Assembly: GCA_025449645.1 (NCBI GenBank)
Contig: JANWIY010000047.1
Location: 1 to 44,126, forward strand
Reading direction: 5' to 3'
From: Chitinophagaceae bacterium
GTDB lineage: Bacteria; Bacteroidota; Bacteroidia; Chitinophagales; Chitinophagaceae
Length of the DNA stretch: 44,126 nucleotides
Part shown: one piece after another, positions 4,690-19,101 of the stretch
How the letters are laid out: each line of letters opens with the position of its first letter
How positions within the stretch are numbered: the first letter of the stretch is position 1
Notes under the pieces: generated by a model
The model's database searches: none
Seen by the model: only the letters and a program-made list of their open reading frames with translations
What the model was told of the DNA's origin: nothing
Made by a program: the position numbers and the translations under genes

Positions 4690-5628
4690 CTATTTTTCAT
4701 GGACGACCTCAAGTACGATTTTTCCTCTTACGTGACCCTCCTTGCTTAATCTTTGTGCTTCGGCGGCCTGCTCAAGAGGAAATACTTTCCCAACAATTGG
4801 TTTTATTTTTCCCCGGTCAATCAGTCCGGCTATCTGAGTCAATTCTTCGGGGATGGAATTTGCGGAGAAGCCTTCCACACGGATATGTTTAGACTTTGAT
4901 TCGTCGGTGCTCTCCGGCTTGACGGTGGTGATTAGCCGGCCGCCCTCTCTCAATACATGAAATGATTTCTCTTGAATTTCACCGCCCAGGGTGTCGAATA
5001 CGAGATCGATATTCTTTAACCGCTCTTCGAATTTTTCTTTTTTATAATCAATCACTTCATCGGCACCTAATGACTTAACGAAATCTATATTTTTTTCAGA
5101 TGTAGTACCAATCACATATGCGCCTTTCCATTTTGCAAACTGAACAGCAAAACTTCCCACGCCGCCGGATGCTGCATGAATCAATACTTTCTCGCCGGCT
5201 TTGAGCTTTCCATAATCAAATAAACCCTGCCATGCTGTAAGTCCGGCCAGGGGCACAGCGGCAGCATGCACATGGTCGATCGTTTTCGGTTTAAGTGCTA
5301 CCAGACTGGCTTTCACCGCTACATATTCTGCATAGGTACCATTTTTTGTCAGGTCCGGGCGGCTATACACTTCATCTCCTTTCTTGAAATTGTTCACATC
5401 CCTACCGGTCTTTTCAATTACGCCGGACAAGTCCCATCCAGGAATGAGCGGAAAATGAGTCGGGAACCTTTCTTTGTTCATTCCTTCCCTGATCTTCCAG
5501 TCAACCGGATTGACTCCGCTGGCATATATTTTTATCAGTACCTCGTCTGCCCCGGGTTCAGGCGTTGGGGCCTCTTCGGCTTTTAACACTTCGGGACCGC
5601 CGAACGAATGAATTCTTATTGCTTCCAT
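4690..5628 (-). CDS. NADPH:quinone reductase-like zinc-independent alcohol dehydrogenase (MDR superfamily)
   Basis: 312 residues from the ATG at 5628, which matches the usual family N-terminus (MEAIRIHSFGGPEVL). It has the GroES-like N-terminal domain and the nucleotide-binding motif HAASGGVGSFAVQFAK at about residues 151-166, followed by a TSEKN loop that favours NADPH. The catalytic zinc ligands of alcohol dehydrogenases are not present, which points to the quinone oxidoreductase branch. Likely a cytosolic enzyme reducing quinones or enones. The in-frame extension to 5682 adds 18 residues unlike the family. Confidence 0.88.
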   Translation of the reverse strand: MEAIRIHSFGGPEVLKAEEAPTPEPGADEVLIKIYASGVNPVDWKIREGMNKERFPTHFPLIPGWDLSGVIEKTGRDVNNFKKGDEVYSRPDLTKNGTYAEYVAVKASLVALKPKTIDHVHAAAVPLAGLTAWQGLFDYGKLKAGEKVLIHAASGGVGSFAVQFAKWKGAYVIGTTSEKNIDFVKSLGADEVIDYKKEKFEERLKNIDLVFDTLGGEIQEKSFHVLREGGRLITTVKPESTDESKSKHIRVEGFSANSIPEELTQIAGLIDRGKIKPIVGKVFPLEQAAEAQRLSKEGHVRGKIVLEVVHEK

Positions 5629-9679: not shown

Positions 9680-11473
9680 CTATTTATTTCTTTCCGCTGG
9701 TATGAATTCCTGCTCCACTGCCTGCCGGATCAGGTCAGGTGGCAACAGGCCCTGGGATAAAATAAAGTCATGAAAGTGCAGGTCACTGAATTTGCTTCCC
9801 AGGGCCTGTTCAGTTTCTTTTTTCAATGCAATCATTTTGGTGAAACCATAAAAATAGCTGTTGGCCTGCCCGGGATTTTTCAGGGTAAACCTTTGCACTT
9901 CTTCGTCAGCAAAAGCCTTGGACGAAACAACATCCTTTGTCAATACCTGGAATGCCTGATCCTGCGTGATGGTTCCTGCCTGAAGTTCAGGATCCAAAAA
10001 TGCCCTTGCGGCGCGTAAAAGAAGATAATCAAGGGACACAAGGCGACCCTCCAGAGGCATGTAAGGCCGGATCATGTATTCCGCATACAATCCCCATCCT
10101 TCCACATTGGTGGAATTAAAAGCGTAGAGTACGCGCGCCCTGGAAACACCTTCTTCCACCATTTTATCGAACTGCAGTTCGTGCCCCGGCCGGGCTTCAT
10201 GGGCGATGATGGTCCATGATGCTGCGTCAAACGTAAAATCATCGTATTTGTCTTCTGTTTTCCCGCCTGGTGGAGATGGCATGTTGAGGGGCAATACAAA
10301 TACGCCGCGCTGGCCGGTGTTGTTCAAAAAAGGAGGCGGATCCATGTGCGGCGCAGGTTGCTGTGCGGTTTCCGCGACGGTAGCCAAACGGATAATGGCC
10401 GGCCGGTTGGGCAGGGTTACCAGTTGATGCTGGCGAATAATGGCTTCAATATCTTTCAGATGGCGCTCATACAGGGGAATGATCGAGTCCCCATGTATTT
10501 GTTCCTTTTTAAGTTCGTGCATCACACTCCGGTAATCACCGGAGGCCAGATGTCGCCGGCTGGCGATCTCCGCTGCTATGGGCTTCATTTCATTTTGGAT
10601 ATTGGTAAATGCGGCATGTGCCATCCTTGCGATTTCCGCCGGTGAAATATCAATGCCGAAATTTTCAAAAGCCAGCGCATACTCCTCCGGCGGCATGCGG
10701 AAATCTTCACGGGCTTTGGGTAAAACCTGTTCCCGGGTCCATTGATCATAATCTTCCACCTGCTTTTTTAATATTCCATAAGGCTCTTCCCAGTTTTTCA
10801 GATTGTATTTTTTGCACAGCTCCGCAACGCCGCCCATAATGCTGGCATCACGCGATAAATCCAATTCCATTTTCTGTCTTGAAGGATATACCATATTCTG
10901 CGCGGCGATCTGATGCTTTACCCTATCCTCAAATATTGTTGTAATGGATTGGTATCCGGGTTCCAGGCCGGCATATTTCCGCATGCGCACGATAACTGCA
11001 TGACGACGCTCAGTTGCTGTTTGGGCATCAAGTAAGATCCGCAGTCCTTCATAAATTGTAGTCGTGGCATTCAGAAAAGGCACCCTGTGGGTCAGCTGAT
11101 AATCCTGCTGACGGAAACCCAGGTCCATATGATGGATCAGGATATGGAGATCCTGCAAAACGGGTTCCTGCTTTTCTTTTTCCAATGCTGCGGTAAAAAC
11201 GGATACCAGTTGTTCTTCTTCCTTTCTCTTCGCCAGTTGGTTGGCCAGGGTGGGTGCGGCAACGAGCGTATCGTATTCCGGCAGCCCTTCGTTAGATCCA
11301 AATTCGGGAGAATATTTTTTATCAAGGTCGATCAGCATCTGGGTGTAATGGTCAGATTGCTTAATCCAGTCTTTTTTATTCCCGGAAGCTGTGTTTTGGG
11401 GCTTTGCGGGGAAAGGCAATAAACAAAAAAAGCAAATGGCCGAAATGATTAGCCCCCGTTGAATTCTATTCAT
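9680..11473 (-). CDS. DUF885 family exported metallopeptidase-like protein
   Basis: 597 residues with an N-terminal signal peptide (hydrophobic residues 8-20). The key motif is HEARPGHE at residues 425-432 (HExxxGH), the presumed metal-binding site of the DUF885 family, which is thought to be a gluzincin-like peptidase; activity has been shown for few members. The C-terminal part is helical and ends within family length (about 560-600). The promoter element at 11511-11518 fits this start at 11473. It shares no operon with its neighbours. Confidence 0.87.
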   Translation of the reverse strand: MNRIQRGLIISAICFFCLLPFPAKPQNTASGNKKDWIKQSDHYTQMLIDLDKKYSPEFGSNEGLPEYDTLVAAPTLANQLAKRKEEEQLVSVFTAALEKEKQEPVLQDLHILIHHMDLGFRQQDYQLTHRVPFLNATTTIYEGLRILLDAQTATERRHAVIVRMRKYAGLEPGYQSITTIFEDRVKHQIAAQNMVYPSRQKMELDLSRDASIMGGVAELCKKYNLKNWEEPYGILKKQVEDYDQWTREQVLPKAREDFRMPPEEYALAFENFGIDISPAEIARMAHAAFTNIQNEMKPIAAEIASRRHLASGDYRSVMHELKKEQIHGDSIIPLYERHLKDIEAIIRQHQLVTLPNRPAIIRLATVAETAQQPAPHMDPPPFLNNTGQRGVFVLPLNMPSPPGGKTEDKYDDFTFDAASWTIIAHEARPGHELQFDKMVEEGVSRARVLYAFNSTNVEGWGLYAEYMIRPYMPLEGRLVSLDYLLLRAARAFLDPELQAGTITQDQAFQVLTKDVVSSKAFADEEVQRFTLKNPGQANSYFYGFTKMIALKKETEQALGSKFSDLHFHDFILSQGLLPPDLIRQAVEQEFIPAERNK

Positions 11474-14747: not shown

Positions 14748-16604
14748 CTACTCCAACAGCAGTTTCTGGTCTTTCGGATATTTTACGCTGTAACTGATTG
14801 ATAATTTTTTCTCTTCGCCCGGCCGTAGACCAACTACCCAGTTAATCATGCCGGTTTCCTTGTTGATCTGGGCTTCAGGTGATTTTACGTTTTCCACGCT
14901 GATGTCCCTGTTGGTTGAAACCGGGATCTGGTCCACCACATTGATATTCACTGGAACTTTTTTTGTATTTCGGATACTGGTTTCATATTGTCTGGAATCG
15001 GTTCGGTTATTGCCGATGAATTTTTTTGTACTGTATTCTTTTATCAGTTTGCGGGATATTTTAATTCCGTTATCCTTACCAAGCGAAAGTGTCAGGGTAT
15101 CTGTGGCGGAAGCCAGGTCAAGATAAGTCTTGCCAAGGTAAGTACCTTCAAAATAAAGGCTGATTTCCCCAGGTTGCAGATCATAGTCCTGCCAACTAAT
15201 GATCCGTGCATTGAGAAAAGCAGTCGGGTCAATCTTGGGTACTGAATAATATTCATAGGTCGCGGGAACCTCAAATTGTTTGATACTGATGGTGGTGGTT
15301 TTCCCATCCGATTCAAGAGTGTATTTATCGTTTATTTGGTATACCATGGCCGTCGGCTGGTATTGGGTGGCGACCGAAATTGTTTGAACAGATTCTGTCT
15401 TTCTCCTTGTTTCTTTATCAGCAATCTCAACTCCAGCCGCTTTTCCCTCCATTGAATAACCACTTACAACGACTTCTTCCAAGGCATCAGACCTTGGCGT
15501 GAGCAGAATCGTTATATACCCCGAATTTGCCCTGACTTCTTTCGTTTGGTATCCCACGCTGGTTATGACCAGTATACCATCTGCGGGCATATTTCGCAAT
15601 TTAAAATATCCATTACCATCCGTTTGAACAGCAGTGCCCAGGCCTTTTATTGATACGGTAGAGCCGGGTATAGGCTCTCCCTTTTCATTGGTAATCCTTC
15701 CGGATATTTCACCCTGAACACCATGACCGCTCAATGAAACAGAAGGATCATAAAATCCCAGCATCCAAGGCTGCAGAGTAGGTTGGGTGGCATTGTCTTT
15801 GGGATTTCCGGTGCTAAGCTGAAGTGGAATATTCTTCCAGGTTTCACCACTCCGCTGAAAAATATTGGCGTTCATTAGAATGCTTAAGGGTTCGGTTATC
15901 TCATTAACCCGCACATCATAGGTTGGATACCATCCCGCATCTTTCACATTATACCATAACTGAAAATTCACGGTGGCGGATTGCTTGCTTTCAATCAAAG
16001 CTGTAACAATATAATTGATACTGTCCCGCTTTTTACTCATCTCCTGCAACTGGGCCTTATTCCTCAGAAGATCCTGTTCTTCCGTAACAAGATGTTTTTG
16101 GATCTCGAGTTCCTTCTCATACAATTCTGTCAGTCGCTGGCGCTGAAATTCCAGTGCATCTTTCAAATCTACGGTCTTTACGCCCGACTGACCACCAATG
16201 GCCTGGTTCTTGACCAGCATTGCTTCTTCGTTCTTACAGACATCCAACTGTTTCTGGTCGAGATCAATTTTATCCTTCAAAGTATTTGTCTTGTTAATAA
16301 AGTCCTGTTCCTGCTGTTCGATTTTGCGTTCTGTCAGGAAATCCTTGCTTGTATTTACAGAAAGCAACGTAATACCAGCATCCGCCATTAATTGCACCGT
16401 CTGCTGATCTAATTGATTGCTGAGACCAGCAAAAGAAATTGCTGCACGGCCGGCCGGTATGTTCACAGAAGCCGTTCTTTCCACCCGGGCACCTGAAGAA
16501 AAAACGGTAACATTTTGGATTGTTGTTTCAACATCCAGTTTTTTTACCTGGCAAGGCGCACCGAACCAGAAAAGCAAGGGCAAACCGATTAAGAAAATCC
16601 GCAT
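14748..16604 (-). CDS. MuiA-like DUF4140/DUF4139 protein with inserted SusC-like domain
   Basis: 618 residues with a signal peptide (residues 1-18). Order of parts: DUF4140-like N-terminal domain (about 28-100), a long coiled coil (about 95-205), the DUF4139 beta-rich domain starting near QLWYNVKDAGWYPTYD (215-230), then an insertion at about 297-383 and the rest of DUF4139 to the end. The insertion reads as a CarboxypepD_reg-type domain (GRITNEKGEPIPGSTVSIKG, TDGNGYFKL) followed by LEEVVVSGYS, the segment that in SusC proteins opens the plug domain. The MuiA name comes from a mucoidy inhibitor, but the biochemical role is unknown. Located in the periplasm or outer membrane. Confidence 0.85.
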   Translation of the reverse strand: MRIFLIGLPLLFWFGAPCQVKKLDVETTIQNVTVFSSGARVERTASVNIPAGRAAISFAGLSNQLDQQTVQLMADAGITLLSVNTSKDFLTERKIEQQEQDFINKTNTLKDKIDLDQKQLDVCKNEEAMLVKNQAIGGQSGVKTVDLKDALEFQRQRLTELYEKELEIQKHLVTEEQDLLRNKAQLQEMSKKRDSINYIVTALIESKQSATVNFQLWYNVKDAGWYPTYDVRVNEITEPLSILMNANIFQRSGETWKNIPLQLSTGNPKDNATQPTLQPWMLGFYDPSVSLSGHGVQGEISGRITNEKGEPIPGSTVSIKGLGTAVQTDGNGYFKLRNMPADGILVITSVGYQTKEVRANSGYITILLTPRSDALEEVVVSGYSMEGKAAGVEIADKETRRKTESVQTISVATQYQPTAMVYQINDKYTLESDGKTTTISIKQFEVPATYEYYSVPKIDPTAFLNARIISWQDYDLQPGEISLYFEGTYLGKTYLDLASATDTLTLSLGKDNGIKISRKLIKEYSTKKFIGNNRTDSRQYETSIRNTKKVPVNINVVDQIPVSTNRDISVENVKSPEAQINKETGMINWVVGLRPGEEKKLSISYSVKYPKDQKLLLE

Positions 16605-17481
16605 AAGAAGATATTAACTATTAAAACGATTTGACTTTTGAAATCAATGCAATGTGCAGGACATTTTCTGATTTATGATGCAAAAACCACTTTAATTACA
16701 TAATCCCTACAAAAATTTATCAGTTTTTTGAGACCTTCAGTGGAGTCCTCAATGTAAAACAGACTTCTTGCGCTCTCCCTAATGGAGAAACCGAATTGAC
16801 ATACTGGTGATCAAGCTTCATTATGAAAAAGGAAGAGCTGCTAAGCTATCTCTTAATCTTCATGCGACAATCACCGGATATTTTAAATATGGATAATGTG
16901 AACTCTGCCGAGCCTATTGCTGGCCGGGAAGCTGGACCATCCTGCCTGATCGGCGGAGTTGACCTTCTTCAATCCGGTAACCCGGCAGGTCGCCGCCGCG
17001 GCCAGTAAAAAAGCATGGTACTGTCCTTCCTGCCATTGCGTCAATTCCGTCTATTTAGATAAAAGCAGATCTTACTTTTTTGCAACGAAAAACCCTCCGG
17101 TGCTATTGTGCTTAGATACTTAAGTACCTATTGAGATTCGATGAAGATAGTAAGTTAAAGCGCAGTTTGGCTGCGCCGGATATTGCAGGCCAAGGTGCTT
17201 TTAAGCTGTTCCAACAGGTGCTTCGGCGTGACGCGGTATACTGTATATAGTGTTGGCATAAACCAATCCCAATGAGCGGTGGCCCTTATCCCGTTTCCTT
17301 TATATTCTAACGCTAAGAATCCCCGGATTGGTATCTTTCGCCCCATTCAGCTCCCAGGCCATTCAAAAGTAAATCAGCCATGAGGGCACAGATAAGATAT
17401 TCTTTTTTACTATGCTGTGATTCTAACCAATTACAGTATTGCACTCCAAGCAACGTGAGTTATTGAAAGTACCTGTTGCCG
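16605..17481. other. Gene-poor stretch of about 0.9 kb
   Basis: I see no convincing gene here. Two open frames of about 60 codons (16823-17008 plus; 17155-17346 minus) start with ATG but show no recognisable domain, signal or conserved composition, and the first ends in a GC-rich arginine run that looks non-coding. There is a 10-bp perfect palindrome TACTTAAGTA at 17117-17126. The stretch may be decayed coding sequence or long regulatory DNA. Confidence 0.5.
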
Positions 17482-17586
17482 TTACGAGTAAATGATGTAC
17501 GACAGCAGGGTAATCAGAGCGAAGACCGTTGTCGTATAGATGAAGGCTTTTTTGAGTGACATATAAATTGTTTTGTGATTGTTCAT
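17482..17586 (-). CDS. Putative 34-residue single-helix membrane peptide
   Basis: A short frame from the ATG at 17586 to a TAA at 17482, below usual annotation length. It begins with a short polar, basic stretch (MNNHKTIYMSLKK) and continues with an uninterrupted hydrophobic segment of about 20 residues (14-33) to the stop, the exact form of a small bitopic membrane peptide with its N-terminus in the cytosol. A second in-frame ATG at 17562 would give 26 residues. It lies downstream of, and on the same strand as, the arsR and small lipoprotein genes. No family recognised; function unknown; coding status is inference. Confidence 0.42.
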   Translation of the reverse strand: MNNHKTIYMSLKKAFIYTTTVFALITLLSYIIYS

Positions 17587-17624
17587 AATTTCTTCATGTA
17601 AAAACAACCTCTAAAGGATAAGTT

Positions 17625-17650
17625 ATGAGCCTGTTTTGGTTTCGGCTCAT
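17625..17650. terminator. Hairpin overlapping the stop of the small lipoprotein gene
   Basis: ATGAGCC (17625-17631) and GGCTCAT (17644-17650) pair perfectly around a 12-nt loop. There is no clear T-run on either strand, so it could be a processing or attenuating hairpin rather than a terminator. Confidence 0.3.
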
Positions 17651-17889
17651 TGCCGATTTGATTTTGAAGCAGGGTAGTATGCGGCCCTAGTCTTATTCTT
17701 TACTGTCGTTTGGTTGATATTGCCTGAGTAAGCCTGGACGGCGCGTTTGCCTGTAACACCAGGTGTGTTAGCCGCCTCTAAATATTTTTCCCGCGCGAAA
17801 CAACCACCGATGGACATGATCAGGAAATAGGCGAGGGCGGCCGGAAGAGGGCTGCTGATGAGGTTTTTTGTTATTGCTATTTTTGACAC
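17647..17889 (-). CDS. Putative small lipoprotein (80 aa, GTG start), ArsR-linked
   Basis: The open frame can be read from a TTG at 17925, but that codon lies inside an operator-like palindrome; a GTG at 17889 gives a better product: basic start (MSKIAITKN), a hydrophobic stretch and a lipobox-like SIGGC with Cys30, then a 50-residue polar mature part rich in Asn, Thr, Lys and Tyr. No family recognised. It is 128 bp downstream of arsR on the same strand and has two of the three operator-like palindromes (17907-17930 and 17980-18003) just upstream, which suggests ArsR control. The coding call rests on the lipoprotein pattern plus this context. Confidence 0.5.
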   Translation of the reverse strand: MSKIAITKNLISSPLPAALAYFLIMSIGGCFAREKYLEAANTPGVTGKRAVQAYSGNINQTTVKNKTRAAYYPASKSNRQ

Positions 17890-17906
17890 GGCGTTTAATT
17901 TAATAG

Positions 17907-17930
17907 ATGTATTCAAATAATTCAATAAAT
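17907..17930. promoter_or_regulatory. ArsR operator-like palindrome, copy 2
   Basis: Arms ATGTATTCAA and TTCAATAAAT separated by 4 bp. The second arm differs at one base from the matching arm of the arsR operator. It lies 18 bp upstream of the GTG start of the small lipoprotein gene. Confidence 0.5.
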
Positions 17931-17979
17931 AAAGGCAAGGTTTTACTCCGGTTCGGACAAATAGGAAACAATATTATAG

Positions 17980-18003
17980 ATTTATTTAAGAACTTCGATA
18001 AAT
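17980..18003. promoter_or_regulatory. ArsR operator-like palindrome, copy 3
   Basis: Arms ATTTATTTAA and TTCGATAAAT separated by 4 bp. The second arm is identical to, and the first differs at one base from, the operator in front of arsR. It lies 14 bp beyond the arsR stop, between arsR and the small lipoprotein gene. Confidence 0.5.
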
Positions 18004-18017
18004 AACCACAAAAAAAA

Positions 18018-18293
18018 TCAAATTTTCAGAGCCTCGATGAAACGGATGTACTCATCCATCAATTTATTATTCAGGTAATACCGCACATTCCGGCCTTCTT
18101 TGTCTGAGGTCACCAGTTCACTTTCCAGCAATAATTTCAGGTGATGGGCAATGGAGGGCTGGGCCAGGTCAATCGTTTTATTCAGATCCACGCAATACAG
18201 GCATTGCCTGCTCTTCTTGATCTCCTTCAGGATCGTCAGGCGGTTGGGGTCGGCCAGCGCTTTCGAGATCTTTTCTGCTTTTTTCGCATCCAT
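18018..18293 (-). CDS. ArsR/SmtB family winged-helix repressor
   Basis: 91 residues, a typical size. The winged helix-turn-helix is clear: KALADPNRLTILKEI (helices 1-2), the recognition region LAQPSIAHHLKLLLESELV, and the wing SDKEGRNVRYYLNN. A CLYC pair just before VDL lies near, though not exactly on, the cysteine pair that senses arsenite in classical ArsR, so a thiol-reactive metal or redox signal is plausible but unproven. The gene has its own -7 element and a near-perfect 24-bp palindrome directly upstream, and two more copies follow the gene, arguing for self-repression and control of the downstream small genes. Confidence 0.9.
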   Translation of the reverse strand: MDAKKAEKISKALADPNRLTILKEIKKSRQCLYCVDLNKTIDLAQPSIAHHLKLLLESELVTSDKEGRNVRYYLNNKLMDEYIRFIEALKI

Positions 18294-18311
18294 TTCAAAT
18301 CAATTACAACA

Positions 18312-18319
18312 CAAAGATA
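18312..18319 (-). promoter_or_regulatory. -7 promoter element TATCTTTG for arsR
   Basis: Exact TAnnTTTG match on the minus strand, 18 bp upstream of the start at 18293 and 5 bp from the operator palindrome, which would cover the -33 region. Confidence 0.68.
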
Positions 18320-18323
18320 TAAT

Positions 18324-18349
18324 CATTTATTGAAATAATTCGATAAATG
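18324..18349. promoter_or_regulatory. ArsR operator palindrome, copy 1
   Basis: A 26-bp inverted repeat: arms CATTTATTGAA and TTCGATAAATG around ATAA, with one mismatched pair. It sits just upstream of the arsR -7 element, where bound repressor would block RNA polymerase. Two related copies are at 17907-17930 and 17980-18003. Confidence 0.65.
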
Positions 18350-18627: not shown

Positions 18628-19101
18628 ATGCAAAAGATCACACCCTTCTTATGGTACGACAACAACGCGGAGGAAGCAGTGAATTTATATACTTCTGTTT
18701 TCAAAAATTCAAAAATCAAAAAAGTTTCGCGTTATGGTGATGCCGGTCCCGGTCCGAAAGGATCCGTAATGGTCATAAACTTCGAGATCGAAGGGCAGGA
18801 TTTTTCTGCCATGAACGGCGGACCGACTTTCAAATTCACACCGGCCATTTCGTTAATGGTTAATTGCAAAACTCAGCAGGAAGTGGATGAACTGTGGGAA
18901 AAACTTTCCGCAGGCGGAAGAACAGACCAATGCGGGTGGCTGCAGGATAAATTCGGTCTGTCCTGGCAGATCACTCCCACGATACTCATCGAAATGATAG
19001 CTGACAAGGACCCTGAGAAATCCAGCAGGGTGATGGCTGCAATGATGAAAATGACCCGGATCGATATTGACAAACTACAGGAAGCATACGATCAGAAGTA
19101 G
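18628..19101 (+). CDS. VOC superfamily protein, PhnB-like
   Basis: 157 residues, full length for the PhnB-like '3-demethylubiquinone-9 3-methyltransferase' domain family, a name based on sequence only. The start MQKITPFLWYDNNAEEAVNLYTSVFKNSKI is characteristic, as are FTPAISLMVNCKTQQEVDELWEKLSAGG and CGWLQDKFGLSWQI. The fold is the paired beta-alpha-beta-beta-beta module of the vicinal oxygen chelate superfamily. The metal ligands of true VOC enzymes are not obvious, so no reaction can be assigned. It stands alone with its own promoter. Confidence 0.92.
   Translation: MQKITPFLWYDNNAEEAVNLYTSVFKNSKIKKVSRYGDAGPGPKGSVMVINFEIEGQDFSAMNGGPTFKFTPAISLMVNCKTQQEVDELWEKLSAGGRTDQCGWLQDKFGLSWQITPTILIEMIADKDPEKSSRVMAAMMKMTRIDIDKLQEAYDQK

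Follow-up and report, generated by a model that had tools for sequence, protein, structure and literature searches.

The locus and its operators

The window is a stretch of 44,126 nucleotides, contig C47 of a draft Chitinophagaceae genome (3.6 Mb, 86% complete). On the minus strand, it carries arsR (18018..18293), two palindromes past the arsR stop codon, an 80-codon frame with a lipobox (17647..17889, including the stop codon), and a small hydrophobic frame of 26 codons (17482..17562, including the stop codon). A third palindrome precedes arsR. The gene encodes a 91-amino-acid repressor of the ArsR/SmtB family with the sequence C-L-Y-C. It matches NCBIfam NF033788 with 65.9 bits (the cut-off is 55), and the Pfam domains HTH_20 (35.9, cut-off 27) and HTH_5 (27.9, cut-off 22) are also above their cut-offs. 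Its score for the SdpR family is below the cut-off (NF033789, 59.4 bits with a cut-off of 100).

An identical ArsR is encoded at locus L034, from a Chitinophagaceae metagenome genome (isolate palsa_953). The two arsR genes differ by 20 synonymous and 0 nonsynonymous changes. (Genome G676 and L034 agree in their contig coordinates and in the peptide.) The window and L034 are collinear from the palindrome before arsR to the stop codon of the small hydrophobic frame, with a single 1-base indel, and their similarity ends beyond that. The divergent VOC gene of the window (18628-19101), considered as a candidate for control through operator 1, is retained in L034, but the other listed relatives have different upstream neighbours. 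The window (9680-11473) and L034 (1964-3817) each have a large gene, and the two are similar in their N-terminal sequence. In L034, this gene directly follows the small hydrophobic frame, but in the window it is 6 kb away from it, suggesting that a rearrangement took place near this frame's stop codon in one or the other.

The three palindromes with 10-bp arms that were described in the original prediction are all present. Operator 1 (18325..18348, before arsR) has no mismatches to the consensus, operator 2 (17980..18003) has one, and operator 3 (17907..17930), 73 bases beyond operator 2, has two; all are given on the minus strand. Their arms match at 9/10, 8/10, and 8/10 positions, respectively. 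Dinucleotide shuffles of the window contained only 0.03 such palindromes on average, and three were reached in 0 of 100 shuffles. In the rest of the 3.6 Mb draft genome, allowing up to 3 mismatches, there are two single places only, with 3 mismatches each. The sites had been thought to frame the lipoprotein-like frame; in fact, operators 2 and 3 are both between arsR and that frame.

We take TAnnTTTG to be the -7 box of Bacteroidota-type promoters. (The term occurs in papers on Bacteroides promoters.) For arsR, this box is TATCTTTG (18312..18319, minus strand), 5 bases after operator 1. A likely -7 box, TAATATTG (17969..17976, minus strand), lies 3 bases after operator 2 and has one mismatch to TAnnTTTG.

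Between the window and L034, operator 1 is identical at 23 of 24 positions and operators 2 and 3 at all 24 positions each. These two sites together are thus 48/48 identical, as compared to 21/23 for the stretch after operator 2 and 16/26 for the spacer. We also counted sites across 34 loci that encode the pump described below, or a fused or free peptide. (This count omits loci that repeat an already counted genome, the 11 sister ArsRs L023-L033, and L096-L098, which are loci of the window's genus with arsR but with neither pump nor micropeptide; no operator site was found at L096-L098.) Site 2 is present in all 34 loci and a second downstream site in 28 of them, so the downstream sites are conserved. 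The original prediction was to fail if the two small frames or sites 2 and 3 were not conserved; the sites and the micropeptide withstand this test, but the lipoprotein-like frame is common to the window and L034 alone. A site before arsR was detected in 14 of the 34. The exact TAnnTTTG motif is present at site 1 in 13 of these 14 loci and at site 2 in 25 of the 34 (not in the window), as compared to 0.65% of random places in the same loci, which were not matched for A+T. Because site 2 is always present and the exact motif accompanies it in 25 loci, the common target of this ArsR appears to be the downstream promoter. Control of the regulator by itself, as originally proposed, is not the general rule.

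ArsR/SmtB repressors are expected to have a palindromic operator at the promoter that they control, and the sequence alone places one there. In the pump loci that we displayed, site 3 is immediately upstream of the adaptor's start codon. We infer that ArsR occludes site 2 and that site 3 provides a roadblock or a cooperative contact.

In L039, from genome G158, the sole downstream site that we found is at 5289-5312, and its flanks resemble those of site 3 in relatives. Recombination between sites 2 and 3, with deletion of the promoter between them, would give such an arrangement. No -7 box was found at the downstream site of L039, so its peptide may depend on read-through. Nine of the 11 sister loci (L023-L033) also have a similar palindrome downstream of arsR.

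The small frames and the efflux operon of relatives

In relatives, arsR and two downstream operators are followed by the genes of an RND efflux operon: first the periplasmic adaptor (about 360 residues), then an AcrB-type pump (about 1040 residues), and then a TolC-like channel (the families in this operon are TIGR01730, ACR_tran, and OEP). An ArsR is found at E ≤ 1e-32 in 20 of 394 genomes from the family, including the window's. The adaptor gene adjoins arsR in 18 of the other 19 genomes (it is absent in G158, which is L039), and the pump gene is behind the adaptor in 16 of these 18; the remaining two pieces of DNA end or show no match first. The channel gene is present in all four of the 18 in which it was looked for (G055, G109, G085, and G226). 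Pump operons are found in most parts of our ArsR tree, including records from Chryseolinea and Flammeovirgaceae (L040-L042). We did not find a fitting report of an ArsR with RND efflux in Bacteroidetes in the literature that we searched, which was mainly open.

The adaptor, the pump, and the channel are present in relatives and not in the window. No piece of the pump was found at the window's locus, where only signal-peptide stubs of the adaptor and the channel have matches. Using ten query proteins, tblastn found no remains of the pump or of the channel's body in 16600-17480 at E ≤ 10. The rest of the window's genome does not contain a close copy of the pump either: the best-scoring adaptor is 28% identical to that of the relative L036, and the best-scoring pump is 33% identical.

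The 80-codon frame is 57% identical to residues 1-46 of the L036 adaptor. It has a signal peptide, a lipobox, and a tail without a match, and its GTG start codon at 17889 aligns with an ATG in L034 and L036. The 26-codon frame aligns with residues 1-23 of the L036 channel, with 74% identity across these 23 positions, and ends at the cleavage site. Because the two stubs match the adaptor and the channel of L036 and the pump is absent, the two tiny frames are what remains of two signal peptides from an operon that has been lost. Going by these alignments, both small frames come from signal peptides of the RND operon that lies behind the same ArsR in relatives, and this is the origin that the original prediction missed. 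Operator 2 is then at the promoter that once served the efflux operon, and operator 3 is just before the place where the adaptor used to start.

The lipoprotein-like stub was originally described as an 80-residue partner in the module. The frame does exist, with its lipobox and GTG start, but it is the beginning of an efflux adaptor. Between the window and L034, it has 19 synonymous changes in 58.8 sites and 43 nonsynonymous changes in 181.2 sites (pS = 0.32, pN = 0.24, pN/pS = 0.73), so selection is not detectable (P = 0.23, Fisher test), and the frame remained open by chance in 16-18% of simulations. The lipobox (I-G-G-C) is retained in L034, without significant selection. The stub is common to the window and L034 alone, and no match to the adaptor was found at the six micropeptide loci of the genus (L090-L095). 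We therefore reject the lipoprotein as a functional partner, as unproven; this stub is most likely debris.

The micropeptide is conserved. It had been described as a 34-codon frame, which exists, but the first ATG of that frame is GCA in L034, while the ATG at 17562 is conserved and gives 26 codons. Between the window and L034, there are 11 synonymous changes in 19.8 sites and 8 nonsynonymous changes in 58.2 sites (pS = 0.555, pN = 0.138, P = 0.0005). The downstream micropeptide of the original prediction, in a module with one ArsR and three operators, is thus conserved, and purifying selection acts on it. Six other genomes, which form a separate clade, give 15 pairs, and 14 of these have P values of about 0.01 or less, down to 1e-8 (pairs within the clade are non-independent, and their synonymous sites are almost saturated). 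The other pair (L091 and L092) is not significant because the two differ by three bases only. These tests rest on 26 codons, and the dS of the micropeptide between the window and L034 (1.0) is above that of arsR (0.43), which is a sign of the small sample. Also, a membrane helix may have a low pN/pS just because it has to stay hydrophobic. The conserved residues of the helix are F-x-Y-T, F, and S-Y. We consider a match of the small frame to SecE (14.2 bits, below the cut-off of 27.55) to be a chance match to one hydrophobic helix.

The AxA cleavage motif is present in all 6 copies that are followed by a domain or a tail but in just 1 of the 9 free copies (L039; P = 0.0014, with rows that are related by descent). 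In the other free copies, position -3 is I, V, or L, and position -1 is in some of them S, G, or R. Judged from these residues, it is as if a cleavable signal had turned into a membrane anchor. The peptides of L090-L095 have an N-terminal extension of about 16-25 residues with a cysteine near its start, and five of the six have an SSPLLxERNKS region. In the (mainly open) literature on small membrane proteins and signal peptides, we found no report of this micropeptide's family.

Distribution and number of origins

In the window's genus, 16 of 33 genomes have this ArsR at E ≤ 1e-30. Three of them have the full pump, or the start of the pump before the contig ends (G242, G680, and G689). Eight have the free micropeptide (the window's genome, G676, G382, G672, G678, G687, G688, and G691). 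One has the signal peptide fused to a DUF2147 domain (G683), one has the signal peptide with a 37-residue tail (G685), and three have ArsR but neither pump nor micropeptide (G673, G686, and G692). If we include G158, which is outside the genus, then the free peptide is beside ArsR in nine genomes. Its stop codon is at the same residue in seven of the nine and one residue later in L091 and L092.

A search of the genus with a profile of the micropeptide had matches in 12 of the 33 genomes at E ≤ 0.01, and in each of the 12, a strong match adjoins arsR or is the signal peptide of the channel in the operon behind it. (An earlier, narrower profile had matches in 12 of 394 genomes at E ≤ 0.01, mostly weak. 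We attribute to chance the weak matches in G280, G001, G046, and G034, with E from 1.7e-4 to 7.5e-4 and within frames of 141-614 residues, as well as a second match in G680 with E = 0.008.)

Our tree of ArsR has 48 rows and 91 columns, with many open forks and a midpoint root. The window and L034 are in a supported set of five (96/85), along with two full-pump loci and a fused locus. L039 is outside of this set, and the clade of six is apart from it. Given these positions, the simplest reading of the tree is that the locus was reduced to the free peptide at least three separate times, although transfer between lineages could mimic repeated loss. The reduced locus is common to the window and L034, so that reduction predates their split.

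At L038 (5429-5884), which has the same operators, a DUF2147 domain follows the signal peptide of the channel. This fusion is a natural domain swap after pump loss. At L099, a frame 453-734 bases after the start of arsR has the signal peptide with A-S-A-Q and then a 37-residue tail, and the first residues of the tail are slightly like the start of the mature channel. It is a possible intermediate of decay.

Proposed function, alternatives, and known systems

We think it likely, from the sequence comparisons above, that this locus is a reduced efflux operon whose channel signal peptide has been kept under selection as an independent protein. The comparisons show that the window and L034 belong to a lineage in which the pump genes are gone, while the repressor, the promoter region with operators 2 and 3, the adaptor stub, and the signal peptide of the channel are left. 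The selection tests support the view that the signal peptide, which ends with a stop codon at the cleavage site, has been maintained as a separate protein. ArsR would bind operator 2, over the promoter, as well as operator 3, within the leader, and block transcription until an inducer frees it, and then the micropeptide would be made. The peptide would enter the inner membrane with its lysines inside and remain mostly uncleaved. It may act as the one-helix partner of another membrane protein, plausibly an RND pump that remains in the genome. By analogy to AcrZ and MntS, we tentatively suggest that its molecular role is to modulate a transporter, which is possible but short of probable.

We are doubtful of another idea, in which the pump operon already had two uses for the channel: its signal peptide, once cut off, would be a further product that acts as a regulatory peptide in the inner membrane. 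If true, a hidden regulatory job would explain why the signal peptide is conserved like the channel in the nearest pump operons and why it alone survived, repeatedly, with the cleavage motif mostly lost. Between G680 and G689, the channel's signal peptide is identical at 17/26 positions and the channel at 273/419, while the adaptor's signal peptide is identical at 6/27 and the adaptor at 222/330. Across the six channels that we compared, the signal peptides of G680, G689, G055, and G109 are alike (11 to 17 of 26-28 positions). However, those of G085 and G226 are unlike (2 to 10 of 23-26), which counts against this idea.

The signal may not be arsenite. In the R773 ArsR, the classical arsenite site is described as Cys32, Cys34, and Cys37 (PMC11868830), and the window's C-L-Y-C does not have this CxCxxC spacing, as was pointed out originally. 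In the main micropeptide clade (L090-L095), all six ArsRs have W-L-Y-C, with W replacing the first cysteine, so a two-cysteine switch cannot be general. The sister ArsRs (L023-L033) precede MFS-like exporters (9/11) or old-yellow-enzyme-like genes (2/11). (One neighbour of each kind was checked against Pfam, and the others were judged by their shared sequence start.) The two that precede old-yellow-enzyme-like genes, L032 and L033, carry CGQC. CyeR, a redox-sensing ArsR, is described as controlling an old yellow enzyme (PMC8960804). This parallel, together with the neighbours of the sister ArsRs, favours a redox or electrophile signal over arsenite. Our guess, by analogy, is that the inducer is redox or electrophile stress, sensed via a conserved cysteine. 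Other arsR genes, from Flavobacterium, are mentioned in connection with redox-like stress (PMC9239112).

A simpler explanation would be plain decay of the operon: both small frames would be functionless and not yet broken, and the operators would persist for ArsR or by chance. The lack of detectable selection on the stub and its chance of staying open fit with this explanation, as does the micropeptide frame alone, which would stay open by chance with a probability of about 0.56 (in simulations). Three genomes of the genus have neither the pump nor the micropeptide, which also fits. Nevertheless, we consider decay to be unlikely, as the micropeptide is under purifying selection both between the window and L034 and in the separate clade of six, the same end point is found in nine genomes, and sites 2 and 3 are fully identical between the window and L034 while the spacer is not. 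In the reverse direction, the micropeptide would be older and would have been captured by a channel gene as its signal peptide. The sequence does head three different proteins (the TolC-like channel, the DUF2147 domain of L038, and the 37-residue tail of L099), the distant pump operons of G085 and G226 have unlike channel signal peptides, and our ArsR tree is rooted only at its midpoint. But the window and L034 are nested among full-pump loci, and their adaptor stub shows that loss occurred there; in addition, pump operons are spread across most of the tree, out to L040-L042. Capture thus seems very improbable.

Two alternatives concern what the peptide does. It could damage the membrane, as a toxin or as a brake on growth, with ArsR as its keeper. 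There is a precedent in TimP of Salmonella, which is described as a toxic inner membrane peptide that is like a signal sequence and is not cleaved (PMC7667032), and doubled operators would suit a product that needs to stay off. In the pump operons, though, this sequence looks like a normal signal peptide, and the conserved F-x-Y-T and S-Y suggest a specific contact, so we give a toxin little credence. In Bacillus subtilis, the membrane protein SdpI anchors or sequesters the regulator SdpR, and the micropeptide might do the same for ArsR. That the strong profile matches adjoin arsR or are in the operon behind it in all 12 matching genomes of the genus would fit, and the ArsR has some similarity to the SdpR model (59.4 bits). 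This score is below the cut-off, however; SdpI is a multi-pass protein; and the relatives with the pump keep ArsR without any free micropeptide. We consider membrane anchoring of ArsR to be highly improbable.

Under our preferred explanation, a reduced efflux operon with a retained signal peptide, close relatives provide a natural series: the full pump, the fused peptide, the stub, the free peptide, and nothing. This makes the origin of a small membrane protein testable at matched loci with the same repressor. The locus also illustrates that small frames can mislead if they are read without the parent operon, as one of the two tiny proteins is most likely debris. What holds from the original interpretation is the ArsR, the three conserved operators, and the micropeptide; the lipoprotein as an equal partner does not.

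Several known systems are similar in part. MntS reportedly evolved from the signal peptide of SitA. By that account, it is, as here, a small protein of signal-peptide origin under a metal-responsive regulator (it is in the MntR regulon), and the micropeptide shares two features of this kind of protein: it is homologous to a secreted protein's signal peptide without any mature part, and it has its own coding constraint. MntS differs in its sequence, regulator, parent gene, and phylum. Also, the change described here seemingly occurred three times or more, and close relatives still have the parent operon. What seems to be new, with MntS as the precedent, is a signal peptide that became a regulated gene more than once. 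As for their function, MntS of Escherichia coli is described as a 42-amino-acid protein that acts on a manganese exporter (PMC10710835), and AcrZ of E. coli as a 49-amino-acid, one-helix inner membrane protein on the RND pump AcrB (PMC10710835, PMC7267776). Unlike for AcrZ, the local pump is gone from the window, and our choice of partner is a guess. TimP is described as a small protein whose signal sequence stays uncleaved and whose residue at -3 is unfavourable (PMC7667032), which shows that a poor -3 residue can go along with escape from cleavage. TimP is repressed by a small RNA, not by an ArsR. We know of no link between TimP and an efflux gene. CyeR and RexT are redox-sensing ArsR proteins. 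Two of the sister ArsRs precede old yellow enzyme genes, as CyeR does (PMC8960804), but the ArsRs of the main micropeptide clade do not have the first cysteine of the C-L-Y-C pair. Finally, the relatives have the usual arrangement of a tripartite RND operon with a local repressor, with arsR first and then the adaptor, the pump, and the channel, whereas the window has only the control region and two signal-peptide stubs.
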